Origin: Actinomycetota bacterium | GTDB taxonomy: Bacteria > Actinomycetota > Coriobacteriia > Anaerosomatales > JAUXNU01 | Length of the DNA: 58,412 nucleotides | Reading direction: 5' to 3' | Assembly (NCBI GenBank): GCA_030682655.1 | Contig: JAUXNU010000092.1 | Location: 1-58,412 of the forward strand | In this document: piece after piece, positions 37,165 to 51,660 of the stretch | How positions within the stretch are numbered: position 1 is the stretch's first letter | How the letters are laid out: each line of letters starts with the position of its first letter | Translations under genes and position numbers: made by a program | Notes under the pieces: model-generated | Told to the model about the DNA's origin: nothing | What the model saw: the letters and a program-made list of their open reading frames with translations, nothing else | Databases searched by the model: none

Positions 37165-38139
37165 TTACGTCTCGAGCAGCCCGTCCACGCTACCCCCCGC
37201 GGCTTCGGCCGCGCCCCGTATCTGCTCGAGAACCTCGCCTGCGCCCATGTCGATCATCCGGTCGACCATGGCCAGTCCCAACGTCTCGGGCTCTGCCGGA
37301 GAGCCCTCCAGGTAGTGGCGGAGGATCGTCTTGCCATCCACCGAACCCACGAAAGCGTCCATCACGAGCTTGTCGCCCTCGATGCGCGCGTACGCGCCGA
37401 TCGGGACCTGGCAACCACCCTCGAGCTTGCGCATGACCACCCGCTCGGCGGTCACGCAGATCTGCGTCTCGGTGTGCGTGAGCTTCTCGCACACGTCGCG
37501 CATGAAGTCGTCGTCGGTGCGTATTTCGACGCCGATGGCGCCTTGGCCTACCGCCGAGACCATCTGGTCAGACTCGATGTAGTGCGTGATGCGATCGGCC
37601 CAGCCCATGCGGGTGATGCCAGCGCTCGCAAGAATGACCGCGTCGACCTCGCCGTTCTCGGCCTTGCGCATGCGAGTGTCGAGGTTGCCGCGCACGTCCA
37701 CGATCTCGAGGTCCGGCCGCAGCGCAACCGCCTGGCTGCGGCGGCGCAGACTCGATGTGCCGAGCCGCGCGCCACGGGGCAGCGTTTCGAGGTTGTAGCC
37801 GGCGCCGCTCACCATGACGTCACGCGGGTCGACGCGCTCCGGTGTCGCCGCGATCTCCAGTCCCTCGGGAAGCTCGGTCGGCACGTCCTTCATCGAGTGC
37901 ACGCACAGGTCCACTGTGCCCGCTGTCAGCTCGACTTCAAGCTCCTTGGTGAAGAGACCCTTGCCGCCGACTTTGGCCAGCGGCACGTCGAGGATCTTAT
38001 CGCCGGTCGTCTTGATGATCATCAGTTCCACAGGAAGGCCGGTGATCTCTTCCACGCGGCCCTTGATGTAGTTGCTCTGCCACAGCGCGAGCTTACTGCC
38101 CCGCGTGCCGATGACGAGTCTTTCGCGACTAGCAGCCAA
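37165..38139 (-). CDS. hemC: Porphobilinogen deaminase (hydroxymethylbilane synthase)
   Basis: About 324 residues. It joins four porphobilinogens into hydroxymethylbilane. VIGTRGSKLALWQSNYIKG opens the protein, SMKDVPTELPEGLEI and LGTSSLRRRSQAVALRPDL bind substrate, and the Cys in RKLEGGCQVPIGAYA anchors the dipyrromethane cofactor. I place the start at the TTG at 38139, seven bases after GGGAG, inside the last codons of hemA, so the genes overlap by 11 bases. No ATG fits before the conserved region. Confidence 0.96.
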   Translation of the reverse strand: MAASRERLVIGTRGSKLALWQSNYIKGRVEEITGLPVELMIIKTTGDKILDVPLAKVGGKGLFTKELEVELTAGTVDLCVHSMKDVPTELPEGLEIAATPERVDPRDVMVSGAGYNLETLPRGARLGTSSLRRRSQAVALRPDLEIVDVRGNLDTRMRKAENGEVDAVILASAGITRMGWADRITHYIESDQMVSAVGQGAIGVEIRTDDDFMRDVCEKLTHTETQICVTAERVVMRKLEGGCQVPIGAYARIEGDKLVMDAFVGSVDGKTILRHYLEGSPAEPETLGLAMVDRMIDMGAGEVLEQIRGAAEAAGGSVDGLLET

Positions 38140-39508
38140 GCTGGTCTCCCATCTCCTTCTGCTCCTTCTCCGACGCCGAAGTGCGCTCCATCTTGCCAAG
38201 GAGCGTCTTCAGTAGGTTCGGATGCGGGCTTCTGCCCTCGGGGTTCTGGTCCAGCCCATAGAGGTAGCGCGCCGCCTCGACGTAGGCGATGCCGTAGCGC
38301 TCGCCCGCGATCTGCTTGAGGCGGTTCGTGGGCCCGTGCATCATCTTGTTCACGATTGCCGAGGACATCGCTTCGACCGCAGCGATCTCCTTCTCCGAGA
38401 GACCGCCGAGACGCTTGAGTGCGCGCGCGAGCTCCTCCTGACGGATGGCCTCGGCCTTCGCGCGCATCGCGGCCACCGTCGGCACGACCTCCATCGATTC
38501 GAGCCAGCCTTCGAAGACCCCCATCTCCTCGGTGATGATCACGTCGGCGCGCTCGGCCTCGCGCATTCGTTCGTCGAGGTTCGATTCGACGACTCCGCTG
38601 AGGTCGTCGATGTCGTAGAGGTAAACGTCGTCGATCTCGGCCACGGCCGGGTCGATGTCACGCGGAACGGCGATATCGATGAAGAACAGTGGTCGACCAC
38701 GGCGGTGACGCCGCGCCTCGGCGACGGGACCCTTCGTGATGATGTACTCGGTCGCGGCGGTCGACGAGATGACGATGTCGGCCTCGACCATGCGCTCGAA
38801 GATGGCCTCGTAGTGGATCGGCTCCCCGTCGAAGCGTCCCGCGAGCTCGACCGCGCGCTCGTAGGTGCGGTTGGCCACGAGCACCTTTCTGACACCGTTG
38901 CTGAGCAGGTGCTTGGCGGTCAGCTCGCTCATCTTGCCGGCGCCCACCACGAGGATCGTGCGGCCCGCGAGCTCGTCGAAGACCTTCTTGGCCAGCTCGA
39001 CGGCCGCGTAGCTTATCGATACCGCCGATTCGCCAATCGCGGTCTCGTTGCGCACGCGCTTGCCCACCTCGAAGCTCTGGCGGAACAGCTTGTTGAAGAT
39101 GCGCCCGCACGCGTTGTGAGTGAACGCGTGGTCGTAGGCTTCCTTCACCTGGCCAAGAATCTGTGCTTCTCCGATGATCATCGAGTCGAGTGAAGCGACA
39201 ACCCGGAACAGGTGACGCACGACGGCTTCACCCTCAGAGATGTATAGGTAGCGCACGAGGTCGTGACGGTCGAGATCGTGGTAGTCCGCCATGAAGTCGA
39301 TGACGGCTCCGGGGCCGTCGGAATCGGCGGCAGTGACTGCGTAGATCTCGGTGCGATTGCAGGTAGAGAGGACGACCGCTTCGATGACGTCGGGTGAAGC
39401 GGTGAGTATCGCGAGCGCTTCTTCCTGGCGATTGGCCGGGAAGGTGAGCTTCTCGCGAATCTCGACCGGTGCGGTCTTGTGACTCAAACCGATAAGCGTC
39501 AGATGCAT
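38129..39508 (-). CDS. hemA: Glutamyl-tRNA reductase
   Basis: 459 residues, slightly longer than usual, with a charged tail. It reduces Glu-tRNA to glutamate-1-semialdehyde with NADPH, the first and commonly the controlled step of C5 tetrapyrrole synthesis. IGLSHKTAPVEIREKL starts the protein; Cys50 in LSTCNRTEIY is the catalytic thiol; GEAQILGQVKEAY and VVGAGKMSELTAKHL (NADPH site) follow. It leads the hemA-hemC-cobA/hemD-ahbC run and is preceded by an unusual structured leader at 39548-39649. Confidence 0.97.
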   Translation of the reverse strand: MHLTLIGLSHKTAPVEIREKLTFPANRQEEALAILTASPDVIEAVVLSTCNRTEIYAVTAADSDGPGAVIDFMADYHDLDRHDLVRYLYISEGEAVVRHLFRVVASLDSMIIGEAQILGQVKEAYDHAFTHNACGRIFNKLFRQSFEVGKRVRNETAIGESAVSISYAAVELAKKVFDELAGRTILVVGAGKMSELTAKHLLSNGVRKVLVANRTYERAVELAGRFDGEPIHYEAIFERMVEADIVISSTAATEYIITKGPVAEARRHRRGRPLFFIDIAVPRDIDPAVAEIDDVYLYDIDDLSGVVESNLDERMREAERADVIITEEMGVFEGWLESMEVVPTVAAMRAKAEAIRQEELARALKRLGGLSEKEIAAVEAMSSAIVNKMMHGPTNRLKQIAGERYGIAYVEAARYLYGLDQNPEGRSPHPNLLKTLLGKMERTSASEKEQKEMGDQLGC

Positions 39509-39547: not shown

Positions 39548-39649
39548 CGCCCTCGCCGGAGCGGTGCGTGGTGTTCAGGCAAGCAGGCCCGGCGAGGGCG
39601 GAGTAGGATCACGCAAAACACGCACCTCTGCTAAATGCCTGAACAGCAG
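39548..39649 (-). ncRNA. Candidate structured RNA leader of hemA (interleaved helices)
   Basis: Read on the minus strand, CTGCT/AGCAG (39649-39645 and 39632-39628) closes a 12-base loop holding GTTCAGGCA. Downstream a 12-bp perfect stem (39600-39589 with 39559-39548) closes a 29-base loop holding the exact complement TGCCTGAAC (39581-39573). The two loops could form a nine-pair kissing contact. GGTGCGTG (39626-39619) and CACGCACC (39570-39563) offer a competing pairing. The structure ends about 40 bases before the hemA ATG. It fits no riboswitch class I know. Function is inferred from position. Confidence 0.5.
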
Positions 39650-39918
39650 GAATTCTACCATTCCAAGGGGGTTCTCAGCAACGCGTGGGCCAGGTTGGGA
39701 AAGCTGCCGACACGCTCCTTGTGGCGGAACAAGTCACCATCCATCTGACACGGGCGCGAGGCGCGCTGCGTGTGCGTCTTTGCGTCGCAGAGACATGTCA
39801 TCGCGTCGTCACCGACATGCGGCCGGTGTTCCCGCGCGCCCATCTCGGCGAAGTCCTCGATAGTCAGCGTGGCTGCTTCGCCGGAAGGACAAACGTCTCC
39901 AATCAGTCAGGCATGCCG
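39650..39918. other. Region upstream of the hemA leader without a recognised gene
   Basis: With the leader, 410 bases separate hemA from the lipoprotein stop. Short open frames exist on both strands but none shows a family motif or a convincing ribosome site. The promoter of the hem operon should lie here; I see no clear sigma-70 pair. Confidence 0.5.
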
Positions 39919-40737: not shown

Positions 40738-41410
40738 CTATCGTGCTCGGGACTCGCCCACCCTGTCTGCGAACTTGTTTAGATAGCCCACCGTGTTGTT
40801 CTTTGCCCTTTCGACCCGTCTAGCGATGTTGTACGGCGGATCGGGATCGTCGAAGCGACCATCCCTGAGAACGAATCCATACCATCCGTGAACAAGCGGC
40901 TCAACATTCCCGTGCGCGTAGGCATCCTGAACCGCGTGGACGCCAAGCCCAAGTTCAAAGAGTCCCTGACGCCTACTGTACGTGCGCATGTCGTTCCTAT
41001 TCCACAGCTCGACGGCAAGATCCCTTTGTCTGACGGCATAGCCGCGCCTTGAGTCCACGCGATCAAGCTCGAAGACCGTGCTCTCGAAGGTATATGCCTT
41101 CTCCCAGAAGTAGCGCAGGTCCGTGTTGAAATGATGCGGGCAGTAGAACGGTCCCATTCCCATGGGGCGGATGTTGGATCTCCAGTAGCTCCCATCAGCA
41201 ATCAGGTCCGCCCGACGCGCGTTCCATTGGAACTTGTTCTCCACAATATCCAATGTCCACGGACGGTGCTCATCACGACGCCCCCAGAGCCCCGAATCGT
41301 CCGTCTTCTCAACGGGCGCACCCGCACAGTACTGGTACGCGCTCTCTTCGCCATCGGCGCGAACCGGGTCCTTGGAGACACAGTCGATTCCACTTGCACC
41401 ATCCTTCCGC
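40738..41410 (-). pseudogene. Orphan RHS C-terminal toxin tip (Het-C/phospholipase C-like domain)
   Basis: The sequence begins with the end of an RHS core, KDPVRADGEESAYQYCAGAP then VEKTDDSGLWG (normally DPxGLxG), and continues as a unique domain of about 195 residues ending at 40738. That domain has GVHAVQDAYAHGNV, the HxxxDxxxH pattern of Het-C and zinc phospholipase C-like helices, plus an earlier HHFNTD. The RHS body and any start codon are missing: the frame runs on into the antitoxin gene region on the other strand without RHS sequence. It looks like a displaced cassette, possibly silent. Confidence 0.65.
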
Positions 41411-41421
41411 CGAGTTATACT
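41394..41421 (+). promoter_or_regulatory. Promoter of the MazEF-like operon, apparently leaderless
   Basis: TTGCAC (41394-41399) and TATACT (41416-41421) are 16 bases apart. The ATG of the antitoxin begins seven bases after the -10, exactly where transcription should start, and no ribosome site precedes it. The antitoxin message is therefore probably leaderless. Confidence 0.7.
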
Positions 41422-41427
41422 TTCGGT

Positions 41428-41664
41428 ATGAAGACGGCGATCTCGATACCCGACGACGTGTTCTCGGACGCGGAAGAGCTTGCGCGGGAGCTCAATCAGT
41501 CCCGCAGCCAGCTCTACAGCCGCGCCGTTCGCGAGTATGTCGCTCGCCACTCCGCCGACAGCGTCACAGCGGCGCTCGACAGCATCTGCGCGGAAGAACC
41601 GAACCCCAACAACGACTTCATCAAAGCCGCGGCCAAGTGCACGCTTGAGCGGTCTGATTGGTGA
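41428..41664 (+). CDS. Ribbon-helix-helix antitoxin (MazE-type)
   Basis: 78 residues. MKTAISIPDDVFSDAEELAR and QSRSQLYSRAVREYVARH form the ribbon-helix-helix DNA-binding fold of CopG-like antitoxins paired with MazF toxins in actinobacteria and others. The acidic, flexible tail should wrap the toxin. It overlaps the toxin gene by four bases (GTGA), so antitoxin and toxin are coupled, and the pair likely represses its own promoter. Confidence 0.9.
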   Translation: MKTAISIPDDVFSDAEELARELNQSRSQLYSRAVREYVARHSADSVTAALDSICAEEPNPNNDFIKAAAKCTLERSDW

Positions 41665-42002
41665 TATCTCAGGGGGAGATATGGTGGGCGGACCTGGGTG
41701 AACCAATCGGATCAGCACCTGGATTCCGACGTCCCGTAGTCATTGTGCAAAGCGACTCGTTCAATCGCAGTCGCATCTCAACGGTCGTGTGCGTGCCACT
41801 CACCAGCAACATGCGTTGGGCCGAAGCTCCCGGCAACGTGCAGCTCGACTCGGCTGCGACGGGGCTTCCCAAAGACTCTGTGGCCAACGTCTCGCAGATC
41901 GTCTCGCTTGACCGAGCGATCCTCACCGAGCGTGCAGGTCACTTGCCGCAGGGCAAGCTGGAACTCGTGCTGTACGGGATCGACGTCGTCCTCGGCCGCT
42001 AG
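41661..42002 (+). CDS. mazF: MazF/PemK-family endoribonuclease toxin
   Basis: 113 residues. GEIWWADLGEPIGSAPGFRR and PVVIVQSDSFNRS, followed by VVCVPLTSNM and NVSQIVSLDRAIL, are typical of MazF/PemK toxins, which cut RNA at short motifs to stop growth. The GTG at 41661 overlaps the antitoxin stop; a TTG three bases earlier is possible. Its stop overlaps the stop of the convergent SDR gene. The coding region looks intact. Confidence 0.93.
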   Translation: MISQGEIWWADLGEPIGSAPGFRRPVVIVQSDSFNRSRISTVVCVPLTSNMRWAEAPGNVQLDSAATGLPKDSVANVSQIVSLDRAILTERAGHLPQGKLELVLYGIDVVLGR

Positions 42003-46914: not shown

Positions 46915-48963
46915 TCAGGCAGCAAGCTGCTTCTTAGGATACGACGCCAGCCCCGTGCCGAGGATAGTCAGCACGAAACCGAACCACGCCCAGCTGATGA
47001 GCGGGTTGATCTTGACGTTCAGAGACAGCGTGTTCTCGTCGGCGCCTTCGAGCACGACGAAGACATCGTGGAGCGGCTCGACGGTGACGTCGGCTTGGAG
47101 CTTAGTCTGGCCCTGGCGGTAGAAGGAGATCTGGCCCGGCTTGACCGTCCCGGCAGGCTTGCCGTCCTTGTCAAGCAAGAATGTCGCCTCGGTGACCACG
47201 TCGCCGTTGGGCAGGTTCTGCTCCTCCAACCCCTCGAACGTGAAGGTGTAGACCCCGGCCTCGAAGGTCGCGCCCGGCTTGTTCTCCACCGTCGTCTTGA
47301 TGTCGTCGACGAACATGGTCGAGCCCACGAGGCCGATCAGGATGATGCCGATGCCGAGGTGCGTGAGGTAGCCGCCAGACTGCGTTCGAGCCCGGCTCAC
47401 GATCTGCCACAGCGCTCCGCCGAAGCTCTCTCCCTTGGCCGCCGCGCGACGGCGGGCACCCTCGATGAACAGGAACGCCGCGACCGAGACCGCGAACGCG
47501 CCCACGACAAGCCCGACTATCGAGTAGATCATTATCAGCGAGGGCGGCTCCCACGGATTGGCGGAGCCGTTCTTCTGAAGGATCGGCAGCATCTCCGTGT
47601 ACCAGATAGCGAGCAACCCGGCCGACAGCACCGCGGTGCTCACGACAGGCCACTTGGCCTTGGCCCAGAACGCCGGACCCAGAGTCTTGCGCCATGACAG
47701 CAGTGGGCAGACGGCCATGATCGCGACATAGATGATGCCGAGCGGGTGGGCCAGCGCGTTGTAGGTCTCCGGCCCGAAGGCCTTGCCGCCGAACGCCGGC
47801 GACAAAGTGAGCAGTGCCACGACGATGGCCGACACAAGCATGATCACGTTGTTGAAGTAGTACGAACTCTCCTTGGAGGTAAGCGACTCGAACTCGTCGG
47901 CACCCTCGAACTCCTTCGAGCGTACGGCCAGACCGATGACGCCGGCAGCCATGGCGAGCACCATCATCGCGAGGAAGATGCCGAGCGACCAGGGGTCCTT
48001 GGCAAACGAGTGAACCGAGACGTCAGCCAGCACGCCGGAACGCGTGATGAACGTGCCCAGGATTACGAGCACGAAGCTGATCGTCGCCATCATGACGGCC
48101 CACTTCTTGAACCCGCCACGACGGCGGTAGACCGTGAAGCTGTGCAGCAGACCCACGCCGGTCAGCCACGGAAGCAGCGAGGCGTTCTCGACCGGATCCC
48201 AGGCCCAGAAGCCGCCCCACCCGAGCACGACGTAGGCCCAGATGGCGCCCAGACCGATACCGATGCCGAGGAACAGCCACGAGAAGACGGTTATGCGGTC
48301 GACGAGCACGACCCAGCGCTTGGACGAGTCGCCGACGATCAGCGCGCCTATCGCAAAAGCGAACGGCACGGCGAGGCCCGCATAACCGATGAAGAGCGTC
48401 GGCGGATGGATGATCATCGCCCAGTGTTGGAGTAGCGGGTTCATGCCGATCTCGCCGATGAGCAGCTCGCCATTGGCCCCAAGCCACTCCGCCGGAGACA
48501 CCCGGAAGGGGTTGTTGGCACTCACGAACAGCGACACGAGGAAGAACAGCTGCACGATATTGAGTACGGCGAGAGACATGTTCGACAGCTCATCGGTTTC
48601 GGACATGCGCCGCCATGCGACGTAGGCCGCAAAGATCGCGAGCAGCCACGCCCAGAACAGCAGCGAGCCCTCGCGTCCCGCCCACACACCAGAGATCTTG
48701 TACAGCCAGGAGATACTGGAGACGTCGGTCGAATGATTCTCGGCGACGTACATGAAAGTGAAGTCCTGTCGGAAGAAGGCGGCCAGCAGTACCGCTACAC
48801 TGCCCGTTAGGCCGGCGAAGATCGCGTACGTGGACAGGTATCCCACGTTCGTGACCGGCTCGCCCTCCTTGCTTCCCATCGCGCGTCCCCAAAACAGCGA
48901 TATCACGGAGACGAACCCACTCACCAAAGCGAGTGCCATGAGCACGTTCCCGAGCGTTGTCAT
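46915..48963 (-). CDS. ccmF: Cytochrome c heme lyase CcmF
   Basis: About 682 residues and roughly 15 membrane segments, near the family size. CcmF takes heme from CcmE and joins it to apocytochrome c. The WWD heme loop is WGGFWAWDPVENASLLPWL, and QHWAMIIHPPTLFIGYAG contains conserved histidines. A periplasmic domain sits before the last helix. The ATG at 48963 has GGAG five bases upstream. No ccmG, ccmH or ccmI gene is in the window, so the reductive and apocytochrome-binding parts must lie elsewhere or be replaced. Confidence 0.95.
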   Translation of the reverse strand: MTTLGNVLMALALVSGFVSVISLFWGRAMGSKEGEPVTNVGYLSTYAIFAGLTGSVAVLLAAFFRQDFTFMYVAENHSTDVSSISWLYKISGVWAGREGSLLFWAWLLAIFAAYVAWRRMSETDELSNMSLAVLNIVQLFFLVSLFVSANNPFRVSPAEWLGANGELLIGEIGMNPLLQHWAMIIHPPTLFIGYAGLAVPFAFAIGALIVGDSSKRWVVLVDRITVFSWLFLGIGIGLGAIWAYVVLGWGGFWAWDPVENASLLPWLTGVGLLHSFTVYRRRGGFKKWAVMMATISFVLVILGTFITRSGVLADVSVHSFAKDPWSLGIFLAMMVLAMAAGVIGLAVRSKEFEGADEFESLTSKESSYYFNNVIMLVSAIVVALLTLSPAFGGKAFGPETYNALAHPLGIIYVAIMAVCPLLSWRKTLGPAFWAKAKWPVVSTAVLSAGLLAIWYTEMLPILQKNGSANPWEPPSLIMIYSIVGLVVGAFAVSVAAFLFIEGARRRAAAKGESFGGALWQIVSRARTQSGGYLTHLGIGIILIGLVGSTMFVDDIKTTVENKPGATFEAGVYTFTFEGLEEQNLPNGDVVTEATFLLDKDGKPAGTVKPGQISFYRQGQTKLQADVTVEPLHDVFVVLEGADENTLSLNVKINPLISWAWFGFVLTILGTGLASYPKKQLAA

Positions 48964-49027
48964 GCGTTCTCCATCCGTCGCCAGGACATGAAGCGGCCAC
49001 CCGACTCGCGGGCCGCGGACGTGGTTT

Positions 49028-49705
49028 CTACTTGCTCTCCTCGGACATGGCCACCGTCGTGGCATCGAACACGCCAGCGCTATCGAGCGATCCGCCGATG
49101 ACTACGTGCGAACCGTCTGTCATGCCTGCGGGCAGAGCCCCGTCGTAGAAGACGTCGATGCCCCGTGTCTCTCCTGCAGCATTCGCGATGGAGAAGCGCA
49201 CGCTGTCGCCAGGCGGCTGGATGGTGGCTGCAATGACGTAGCCGGTTAGCTTCATCGGCTTGCCAACAGCGGTCTCTCCCATAGCAAGAACAGAAGCGAC
49301 CGTAGTGGCGTCCGTCGCGGACTCGTACTTGGACGGGCACTTGGTGAGCATGTCATCGGCGTCCAGCACGCCATCGGAACTGAGCGTGCCGGTCATGATG
49401 GCGACGACCCCGTCGCCGAACGTCGAGGGAACGCTTCCGCTGTAGACGACTTTCAGGGTGGGGCCGCCGGTGGCGTTCTCCTCGCGGATCTCGAAGCGCA
49501 TCGGGTTGGACTTCTTGTCCCAGGAGCCTTCGACGACCGAGCCGCCGACCTTGATGCGCTCGCCATCGAATTCGCTGCTGCCGGCGACCTCGCTGACCTC
49601 GCGATAGTAGGCGCCCTGAGACTGGGCTCCGAAAAAGACCGCGATGACCGCGATCAGGACAATCGCCGTGACGCCGATAAGGCGCATTCGTGCCCGTTTG
49701 TTCAC
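49028..49705 (-). CDS. ccmE: Heme chaperone CcmE, Cys-type, with duplicated OB-like domain
   Basis: 225 residues against about 150 usually. One N-terminal membrane anchor (about 8-28) precedes an OB-like domain. The heme-binding position is Cys123 in LTKCPSKYE (CxxxY) instead of the HxxxY of proteobacteria; Cys-type CcmE is known in Desulfovibrio and archaea. A second domain (about 145-222) repeats the pattern of the first (KVGGSVVEG and KLTGYVIAA; GTLSSDGVLDA and GSLDSAGVFDA) but lacks the Cys. The GTG start has AAGGAG seven bases upstream. It leads the ccm operon. Confidence 0.92.
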   Translation of the reverse strand: MNKRARMRLIGVTAIVLIAVIAVFFGAQSQGAYYREVSEVAGSSEFDGERIKVGGSVVEGSWDKKSNPMRFEIREENATGGPTLKVVYSGSVPSTFGDGVVAIMTGTLSSDGVLDADDMLTKCPSKYESATDATTVASVLAMGETAVGKPMKLTGYVIAATIQPPGDSVRFSIANAAGETRGIDVFYDGALPAGMTDGSHVVIGGSLDSAGVFDATTVAMSEESK

Positions 49706-49978
49706 CTGGTCACTCCTTCATACGCATGCCTACGGTCACGTAGGGCGGCCGCGCGGGGCACGCGACACTACAGCCGCGTGGTGCGTCGTGACGAGGGAAG
49801 GACACCGCTCGTGCCGCCTACTTGCCTGAACACCCAGATAGTACCATCGCCGACCCATCGCCGACAACGGACGCGCAACCCGGAACCACGCCCCCAGAAG
49901 AGCAAACCCGGGGCCGGGTCGGGTCGGCTGCTTCGGTGTGGCGTTTCGCGTGCAAGCAGGTGCCGCGGCGGCGTGCTG
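49706..49978. other. Upstream region of the ccm operon without a gene
   Basis: A 273-base gap between the ccm operon and the gene ending at 49979. A short hairpin CCTACG/CGTAGG spans 49729-49744 just before the ccmE ribosome site. No open frame with support and no clear promoter were seen. Confidence 0.45.
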
Positions 49979-50890
49979 TCACTGCCCCGCGGCACGCTGC
50001 AACCACTGCACATCGGGAACGAATCCGACCTGGCGCAGAAGCGTCATGTACTCCTCGGCAGGAAGCTCGCCGGAAGCACCCTTGAGGGCGACCATCGTAG
50101 CCTCGATGACGTTCGTGCCGAAGCTGCGCCCTTCGAGACGCGGCGTGCTCGTGACGAGCAGCTCGATGCCTTTGGCGCGGCACAGCTCGACGTCTTCCGG
50201 CGTCGTCGTGTTCGTGATGACCCATTTGCCGCTCATGTCCGCGGGCATGTACTTCTTCACGTACTGCCAGTCACCAGCGATGATGTCGGCCCAACGGTAG
50301 ATCTTCTCCATGCGCGGGTTGGGCTTGGGCTCCTTGTTCTGCTCGCTGCCGGTCGGGTAGAGCCAGGAGAACGGAAGCTGAGACACGAGCGGCGTGAGCA
50401 CGCGCACGAGCACCACGAGCGAACGCCAGGTGCGTATCGGGAACGGCACGCCCAGCGCGTAGATCAGATCGCCAAAGACCATCTCGCAGCCCGCGTCACG
50501 CAGTCCCTCAGCCATGCCCCAACGGTCGACGGCGCTCGTCATAAGCACGCGCTTGCCGCGCAGGTCGAGCCCGAGCTCGCCGGTCAGGTAGCCCGGGACG
50601 CTCGCCTCGACCGCGCCCTTGAGGCCGCTGCCGTCAACGATCGGGGTGTCCCCGGCCGCCTTCTTGAGCTTCTTGGCCTCACGGAAAAAGTACTTGTGCC
50701 CTGCGGCTCGCAGATAGATGTCGATACCGCCCATGCCAAATGCGTCGACATGGTCTTTCAGCTCGGCGAACTTGGCGGCGGCCCGGTCCAGATCACCATC
50801 GGTGCCGATACGGCTGATGCGGAACTGTTCGCCAAGGAGCTCGATCTCGACCGAGTGGTCTCGCTTGGAGGAGCCTATGCTGACGCTCAC
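49979..50890 (-). CDS. Conserved protein of unclear function (family sometimes labelled quinate/shikimate dehydrogenase)
   Basis: About 303 residues, no signal peptide or clear membrane anchor. Stretches such as TPIVDGSGLKGAVEASVPG and KWVITNTTTPEDVELCRAKG suggest an alpha/beta enzyme fold. I recall similar proteins in Firmicutes annotated as quinate 5-dehydrogenase, always beside a regulator like the one upstream here, but no catalytic motif proves this. The GTG at 50890 overlaps the regulator stop (GTGA); the frame stays open seven codons further upstream. The coupling implies a shared process. Confidence 0.55.
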   Translation of the reverse strand: MSVSIGSSKRDHSVEIELLGEQFRISRIGTDGDLDRAAAKFAELKDHVDAFGMGGIDIYLRAAGHKYFFREAKKLKKAAGDTPIVDGSGLKGAVEASVPGYLTGELGLDLRGKRVLMTSAVDRWGMAEGLRDAGCEMVFGDLIYALGVPFPIRTWRSLVVLVRVLTPLVSQLPFSWLYPTGSEQNKEPKPNPRMEKIYRWADIIAGDWQYVKKYMPADMSGKWVITNTTTPEDVELCRAKGIELLVTSTPRLEGRSFGTNVIEATMVALKGASGELPAEEYMTLLRQVGFVPDVQWLQRAAGQ

Positions 50891-51501
50891 GACCTCTTTG
50901 ATGAGTTCCACCTCCCAGCACGCTCGGCGGCTTCGCGTAGCGCGGAGCTTACACGCCCGCTTCGGGGCCGCGCGCCGCGCGCCGCCAGTATGCCGGCAAG
51001 CAATCGCTCGAGCTCGGCGATGTCCACGCGCTTGTCTTCGCGAATCGGAGAGTGCCCGAGCGGGATGCCGATGATCTCCCGCCCGAGGATTCGCTCGATG
51101 AGCTCGATGCGCCAGTCGCTGGCCATGAGCACTATGACGTCGTAGTCACGCAGGGTCGCAAGCGTCTCGAGCAGCCGGTTGAAGACCTCGGTAGCCGAGC
51201 CTGCCTCGATGCTCTCCCGCTCAGCCTGCGAGACCACGAGCACGAAGTCGATGGCGAGACGCTCTGCGAGCTCCTTGACCTCCTCGGCGTTCTCGATAGG
51301 AAAGCCGACGAGTGCGATGCGGGCTCCCCGACGCACCTCGCCGATCGACTCAAGGAACGAGACGAAGCTGCGCTGTACGCCCTTTGCGCGCGCGACTTCC
51401 TCCTGGGTTGCGCCGGCCTCGCGGTCCTCGAGGATCTCCTCGAGCGCATCAAAGAGCTTCTCGCGGCTGATGACCTTGTCCCCGATGCGAAACAGCCGCA
51501 T
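50887..51501 (-). CDS. Helix-turn-helix regulator-like protein
   Basis: About 204 residues. The N-terminal LFRIGDKVISREKLFDALEE leads into a helix-turn-helix, ATQEEVARAKGVQRSFVSFL. A C-terminal alpha/beta domain (from about 55) follows with IALVGFPIENAEEV and IVLMASDWR. It resembles a group of Firmicutes transcriptional regulators with the same N-terminus. AGGAGGG lies five bases before the ATG at 51501. It is coupled to the gene downstream, whose expression or product it may sense. Ligand unknown. Confidence 0.65.
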   Translation of the reverse strand: MRLFRIGDKVISREKLFDALEEILEDREAGATQEEVARAKGVQRSFVSFLESIGEVRRGARIALVGFPIENAEEVKELAERLAIDFVLVVSQAERESIEAGSATEVFNRLLETLATLRDYDVIVLMASDWRIELIERILGREIIGIPLGHSPIREDKRVDIAELERLLAGILAARGARPRSGRVSSALREAAERAGRWNSSKRS

Positions 51502-51660
51502 CGCGCCCTCCTCGTGTCGGCGTCGCGCCGCACCAGGCGGCGTGTGCACAGAGATGTACACACGAAGTATACGCGAGGGCGTGGAACTGGGCTCTCCGAG
51601 TCGCCGGAGACCGCGATCCTGGCACTCTGAGTCCTCGATGCCTAGCGATCTTGGCAACTC

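Follow-up and report, generated by a model that had tools for sequence, protein, structure and literature searches.

The window analysed here, a stretch of 58,412 nucleotides (nt), corresponds to positions 1 to 58,412 of contig JAUXNU010000092.1 (assembly GCA_030682655.1) and belongs to an actinomycetotal genome of 2.94 Mb. It contains, on its minus strand, the gene hemA with its leader RNA and, 10 kb from that leader, the start of an operon for cytochrome c maturation (ccm). The product of hemA has the full set of glutamyl-tRNA reductase domains, and its leader harbors a hairpin, here called P, the loop of which is complementary both to the predicted first bases of its own mRNA and to those of the ccm mRNA (Table 1). 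The relatives of this hemA in named records are Coriobacteriia, several of them assigned to Anaerosomatales, which makes that order the most likely home of the organism. The hosts of this element include uncultured and newly cultured anaerobes of the order Anaerosomatales, formerly OPB41. Outside model species, little is understood of how bacteria adjust heme production to the assembly of cytochrome c, and in these organisms one conserved RNA pairing appears to connect the enzyme that opens the heme pathway with the ccm operon.

Table 1. Features of the hemA leader and of the ccm operon in the window (all on the minus strand; prime signs denote the partner of a segment)
Feature	Positions	Strand	Remarks
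Leader RNA of hemA	39548-39644	-	family member
Possible -35 hexamer of hemA, TTGCTG	39676-39681	-	by eye; 18 nt 5' of the -10 box; not called by a consensus scan
hemA promoter -10 box, TAGAAT	39652-39657	-	of the form TAnnnT
Segment A, GTTCAGGCA	39636-39644	-	predicted +1 of the hemA mRNA
AGCAG	39628-39632	-	may lengthen helix A by pairing with CTGCT of the loop; duplex prediction
Segment B, GGTGCGTG	39619-39626	-	covaries with B'
Stem P, 5' strand, CGCCCTCGCCGG	39589-39600	-	pairing complete (100%) in 57 relatives; both sides changed at 3 pairs
Loop of P, with ext', A' and B'	39560-39588	-	29 nt; nearly invariant within the order
ext', CTGCT	39582-39586	-	predicted partner: AGCAG in cis or the A extension of the ccm mRNA; duplex prediction
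A', TGCCTGAAC	39573-39581	-	exact complement of A; covaries with A in the second class
B', CACGCACC	39563-39570	-	covaries with hemA B in cis and ccm B in trans
Stem P, 3' strand, CCGGCGAGGGCG	39548-39559	-	perfect 12-bp pairing with 39589-39600
hemA, glutamyl-tRNA reductase	38129-39508	-	Pfam GlutR_N, Shikimate_DH, GlutR_dimer
ccm operon -10 box, TACTAT	49838-49843	-	6 nt before A; relatives arranged alike
ccm target, A plus extension, GTTCAGGCAAGTAGGC	49816-49831	-	predicted +1; predicted duplex with the hemA loop
ccm segment B, GAGCGGTG	49803-49810	-	complementary to the B' region of the hemA loop; trans covariation
ccmE, first gene of the operon	49028-49705	-	Pfam CcmE
ccmF	46915-49065	-	Pfam CcmF_C and Cytochrom_C_asm

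Segment A is predicted to be the first segment of the hemA mRNA, since 60 of 64 hemA leaders have a TAnnnT box whose end lies 6 or 7 nt upstream of it. The predicted start in the window (~39644) is the first base of A (GUUCAGGCA), and the distance from the -10 box to A is 6-8 nt across the hemA and ccm leaders, the start sites being predictions throughout. A sequence-only reading of the window had pointed to segment A and its exact nine-base complement, A', and to the perfect 12-bp stem that encloses the 29-base loop containing A'; all of these are present, and the stem is paired in all 57 relatives aligned. Along the RNA the elements follow the order A, B, P, A', B', P', so that helices A, B and P all cross one another. 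The pseudoknot put forward in the same reading stands as far as the pairing between loop and 5' segment is concerned, which is conserved with compensatory changes, but the small hairpin supposed to present A does not. The 5' arm of its 5-bp stem (CTGCT with AGCAG), at 39649-39645, is unconserved and lies between the -10 box and the predicted +1; it is probably untranscribed, because it precedes that start. For the AGCAG arm, a better explanation is that it lengthens helix A, as it is predicted to pair with CTGCT in the loop, and GCAG is common among relatives. The interval between A and P showed no conserved local hairpin across 70 leaders (mean z -0.28), and one is present in just a few genomes. 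The 102-nt stretch folds better than shuffled sequences, with z -2.3, and the 126-nt leader has z -2.75.

A BLASTN search with the 126-nt leader against 68 relatives of the same order matched 64 of them, with a single copy per genome besides weak second matches. The four without a match are G008 and G028, in which no hemA was found, the incomplete G068, and G014. Alignment of the hemA upstream regions of relatives, which had been recommended as a check for compensatory changes, revealed both conservation and covariation of the paired segments, favouring an RNA. Among 57 distinct aligned leaders, 98.6% of the cells in the three helices are paired, against 36-48% when the partner columns are slid by 1-3. 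Stem P forms 12 of 12 pairs in every genome; of the cells of helix A, 99.8% are paired, and of those in the core of helix B, 93.9%. Changes on both sides are seen in 2 pairs of B and 3 pairs of P. Helix A can be judged within the order only by the variants of A, because A' hardly changes; 21 of the 22 changes in A retain a wobble pair. The 8-bp pairing of B with B' is real, covaries and is conserved in its own right. The competition with helix A that had been attributed to it is putative, and helices A and B could coexist or alternate. RNAalifold showed neither of them and proposed other pairs, because both cross P, and direct counting together with duplex tests of own against cross pairing was therefore used.

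More distant members were sought with a covariance model built from the order alignment, class genomes being taken at E values up to 0.01. The model recovered the element in 9 further genomes elsewhere in the class and in 17 of the 36 genomes of a second class of the phylum, and the RNA family is thereby spread over two classes of Actinomycetota. Helix A is settled by the second class, because A and A' change together there, with the pairs GTTTAGGC/GCCTAAAC, GTTTAGAC/GTCTAAAC and GTCCAGGC/GCCTGGAC. Helix B is wholly rewritten in this class yet paired (AGCGCAT/ATGCGCT in L303, AAGTTC/GAACTT in L418), and stem P keeps its pairing in strongly different sequences. In a register-free test, the duplex energy of each leader with itself was set against that of duplexes between leaders, with 5000 permutations; B and P lay beyond all 5000 in every set tested, and A did so in the second class and in the whole set. 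The view of the leader as a conserved structured RNA, with three mutually crossing helices and compensatory changes across lineages, is supported by these sequence comparisons.

A weak second match of the leader in the window, at 49816-49834, falls at the start of the ccm operon. This match in trans was missed by the sequence-only reading, and with it the interpretation moves from a cis-acting riboswitch to a regulator that would work by base pairing on two or more targets. The duplex predicted between the hemA loop and the ccm start has 16 bp and -33.1 kcal/mol, and with the loop's own antisense set aside it ranks first among the 11,676 forty-base stretches into which the window was divided. 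The target segments lie a little over 100 nt 5' of ccmE, and the ccm leaders of the order are without hairpin P. The arrangement of A plus B at the start of the ccm leader is found in 61 of the 62 genomes with enough upstream sequence. The sole exception is G014, where hemA and ccm are both present and the target and hairpin elements are absent from both. The same genome (L217, L164) also has short leaders, and its family mates that possess the element would provide a natural comparison.

Sequence change in the ccm leader follows the hemA loop. At positions 1-13 of the ccm segment, all 40 transitions are compatible with wobble pairing to the loop, and no pair is lost through them; there are also 4 transversions. 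The fit of ccm segment B is better with the hemA loop from the same genome than with those from others (0 of 20000 permutations, or 5 of 20000 when family f7 is left out). In G019, a member of f7, the loop reads ACGCACCAAT and the ccm segment ATTGGTGCGT, whereas most genomes have ...CACCGCT with AGCGGTG. Family f20 (G072, G091) has a hemA leader with the hairpin and no A nearby upstream; its loop, TTACCTGAAC, and ccm start, GTTCAGGTAGGTGGG, represent a change from C-G to U-A between two transcripts, the U-G intermediate of which is seen in G093. For the extension of A, no significant trans covariation was seen within the order (1560 of 5000 permutations), because the loop scarcely varies there. 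That complementarity to a distinct mRNA, that of ccm, is maintained through sequence change is well supported by these comparisons. A search for further targets in the genome that contains the window gave 29 GTTCAGGCA sites, and among the forward matches listed only that of hemA had a promoter context; the combined pattern of a -10 box plus A was found at hemA, at ccm and at one likely chance site only.

The hairpin is also encountered in other positions. It lies upstream of hemA in Coriobacteriia and in G677 and G611, and upstream of a membrane-protein gene and ccmE in f46 and f98. In f21 (L429/G085, L430/G089, L431/G077) it closes the ccm operon at its 3' end, behind a small reading frame likened by eye to ccmD, and a terminator comes next in at least two genomes. 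No hemA match was found in the three f21 genomes, and the ccm message begins with GTTCAGGCA in G085 and G077, the two in which it is readable; the f21 hairpin is thus a possible 3'-end-derived small RNA. In f74 and f93, the hairpin forms a stand-alone unit between moaC and mogA, with -35 and -10 boxes recognised by eye and a U-tract; four genomes carry the hairpin in stand-alone form. The hemA, ResA-like thioredoxin and FtrD-like genes of these two families begin with GTTCAGGCA, with a loop fit of 23-29 kcal/mol, and ResA-like thioredoxin genes with GTTCAGGCA near a -10-like box are present at L373/L411 (G650), L374 (G732) and L378/L385 (G659). In genomes with the stand-alone hairpin, these sites suggest that more cytochrome c genes belong to the regulon. 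In six of the hemA and FtrD-like leaders of f74 and f93 (L319, L320, L327, L328, L413, L396), the target segment is followed by a terminator-like hairpin and U-tract, in some cases with a degenerate A' in the loop, and such leaders are possible attenuators derived from the same element. The U-tracts after hairpins in G611, f74 and f93 suggest that a short RNA may end there, or that termination is regulated. As the hairpin retains its loop while gene, position and stem sequence change, it offers a natural series from a cis-acting leader to a trans-acting RNA.

The hairpin of the hemA leader is probably a base-pairing regulator, acting in cis on hemA and in trans on ccm, and would couple heme synthesis to heme use. 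Its 29-nt loop, composed of ext', A' and B', would pair in cis with the 5'-terminal bases of the hemA mRNA to give the three crossing helices, and the same loop would pair in trans with the corresponding bases of the ccm mRNA. The leader would in this way tie the first committed step of heme synthesis to the use of heme in cytochrome c maturation; what we infer is that these duplexes exist in vivo and alter expression. More tentatively, by analogy, the duplexed 5' end might shield the mRNA from 5'-dependent decay of the RNase J or RppH type and so stabilise the ccm mRNA, and the hemA mRNA might be stabilised likewise when paired in cis. Control of stability through the 5' end is favoured because the targets, like that of RoxS on yflS, occupy the very 5' terminus of the mRNA, a long way from the ribosome site. 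The broader proposal, to which we give a slight preference, is of a mobile hairpin family in which one loop locks the first nucleotides of mRNAs for heme and cytochrome c biogenesis, from sites that comprise the hemA leader, the ccm leader, the 3' end of the ccm operon and a small RNA gene of its own; within Anaerosomatales, the hemA leader would act as a dual cis and trans regulator that balances heme supply against cytochrome c assembly. The predicted target sites are exact, and the idea is therefore directly testable with compensatory mutants.

The main alternative outcome of the same pairing is silencing, in which trans pairing would repress ccm and hemA, for example through recruitment of RNase III or RNase E. 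Long perfect RNA duplexes are good substrates for RNase III, and pairing by small RNAs is more often negative. Silencing is nonetheless rather doubtful here, as a target at the extreme 5' end and far from the ribosome site has the geometry of the protective RoxS-yflS case (PMC5419742). The leader might also be a transcription attenuator, with P as a terminator whose formation is decided by A/A' or B/B' pairing, either in cis or by a small RNA. Such a role would account for the T7 run after the hairpin and before hemA in G611, and for the terminator-like hairpins after the target segment in the hemA and FtrD-like leaders of f74 and f93. However, the U-tract after P is absent in Coriobacteriia and f46, the ccm leaders of the order have no P at all, and an intrinsic terminator, defined as a GC-rich stem with a U-tract before the gene, was not called in the window leader (such U-tracts occur in G611, f74 and f93); attenuation seems unlikely. 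Rather less likely again is a regulator that acts in cis alone, in which the leader would adopt its fold unaided, perhaps with a ligand such as heme at its centre, and the likeness of ccm would reflect a shared promoter-proximal element with another role. The three crossing helices are indeed conserved in cis, and in f46 and f98 the whole element precedes the ccm operon with no second target found there. Nevertheless, the hairpins without a nearby cis partner (f20, f74, f93) keep the loop, the ccm segment covaries with the hemA loop, and both elements are lost together in G014.

A DNA operator, with a transcription factor that recognises sites of the GTTCAGGC type at the +1 position of both hemA and ccm, and with a second, inverted site in the hemA hairpin, would agree with the nearly fixed spacing of the sites at the promoter, and the operators of one factor would change together and could mimic the covariation of A and A'. 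It is very improbable, however, when set against the pairing of P through total sequence change, the RNA-like U-tracts that come next in five loci, and the wobble compatibility of all except one of the changes in A within the order. The order of A and B also differs between the 5' segment and the loop, which crossing base pairs require and a protein site does not. Several points weigh against a regulator of both hemA and ccm that acts by base pairing. The case is built on comparison of sequences and the start sites are predicted, A' is nearly invariant in the order so that A/A' covariation is uninformative there, and the permutation tests take no account of shared ancestry. The pairing lies some 80-150 nt before the start codons, where control of translation is not obvious, and the large loop with A' and B' may not fit both helices plus P. 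The U-tract terminators in several second-class leaders could mean attenuation rather than control of decay. Finally, most members also have a cis partner, so that trans action in the window rests on complementarity and on the relatives.

Cobalamin riboswitches and T-box leaders precede biosynthetic genes in bacteria, and the cobalamin class has a loop-loop contact; in Listeria, SreA is another riboswitch leader that can double as a small RNA. The hemA leader resembles the cobalamin and T-box leaders in its position, and its loop pairing recalls the contact in the former. It differs from them in that it has no match in Rfam 15 at E values up to 10, in agreement with the earlier remark that their hallmarks are lacking, and 12 distant members matched no family at E values up to 0.5. 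With SreA and the RNAs RZ and RA1 it shares the form of a 5' leader able to double as a small RNA, whereas these are ligand-binding riboswitches and the hemA leader is without a ligand domain. RZ and RA1 are SAM-II riboswitch RNAs of Sinorhizobium, regarded as possible small RNAs once released by termination (PMC9373788). In Bacillus subtilis, pairing of RoxS with the 5' end of the yflS mRNA blocks RNase J1 (PMC5419742). The likeness lies in the 5'-end target geometry and in dispersed targets with one metabolic theme. RoxS, however, is a stand-alone small RNA that uses C-rich regions and has been shown to block RNase J1, whereas the present element is a 29-nt hairpin loop, usually in an mRNA leader, with a two-segment target, a cis partner and a putative control of decay. 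FasX on the ska mRNA of Streptococcus (discussed in PMC5419742) is similar in its proposed, stabilising 5'-end pairing and unrelated in sequence, host and architecture. The crossing order A B P A' B' P' is that of the ABCABC pseudoknot (pseudotrefoil, class 1C), represented by 51 sequences against 1688 of the simple ABAB type in a survey of RNA topology (PMC3390330); the likeness is one of topology alone, simultaneous formation of the helices being putative. Searches of an open-access library found no hemA or ccm leader RNA of this kind. Base-pairing regulatory RNAs are a known kind, and it is the family, its dual cis and trans design and its relocating hairpin that appear new.

Two minor observations concern the neighbourhood of these genes. 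The reading frames at 49979-50911 and 50887-51657 (minus strand), which lie immediately 5' of the ccm operon, gave no match in Pfam. Upstream of hemA, at 41370-42002 on the plus strand, two small reading frames have, by eye, the look of a toxin-antitoxin pair of the MazE/MazF type.
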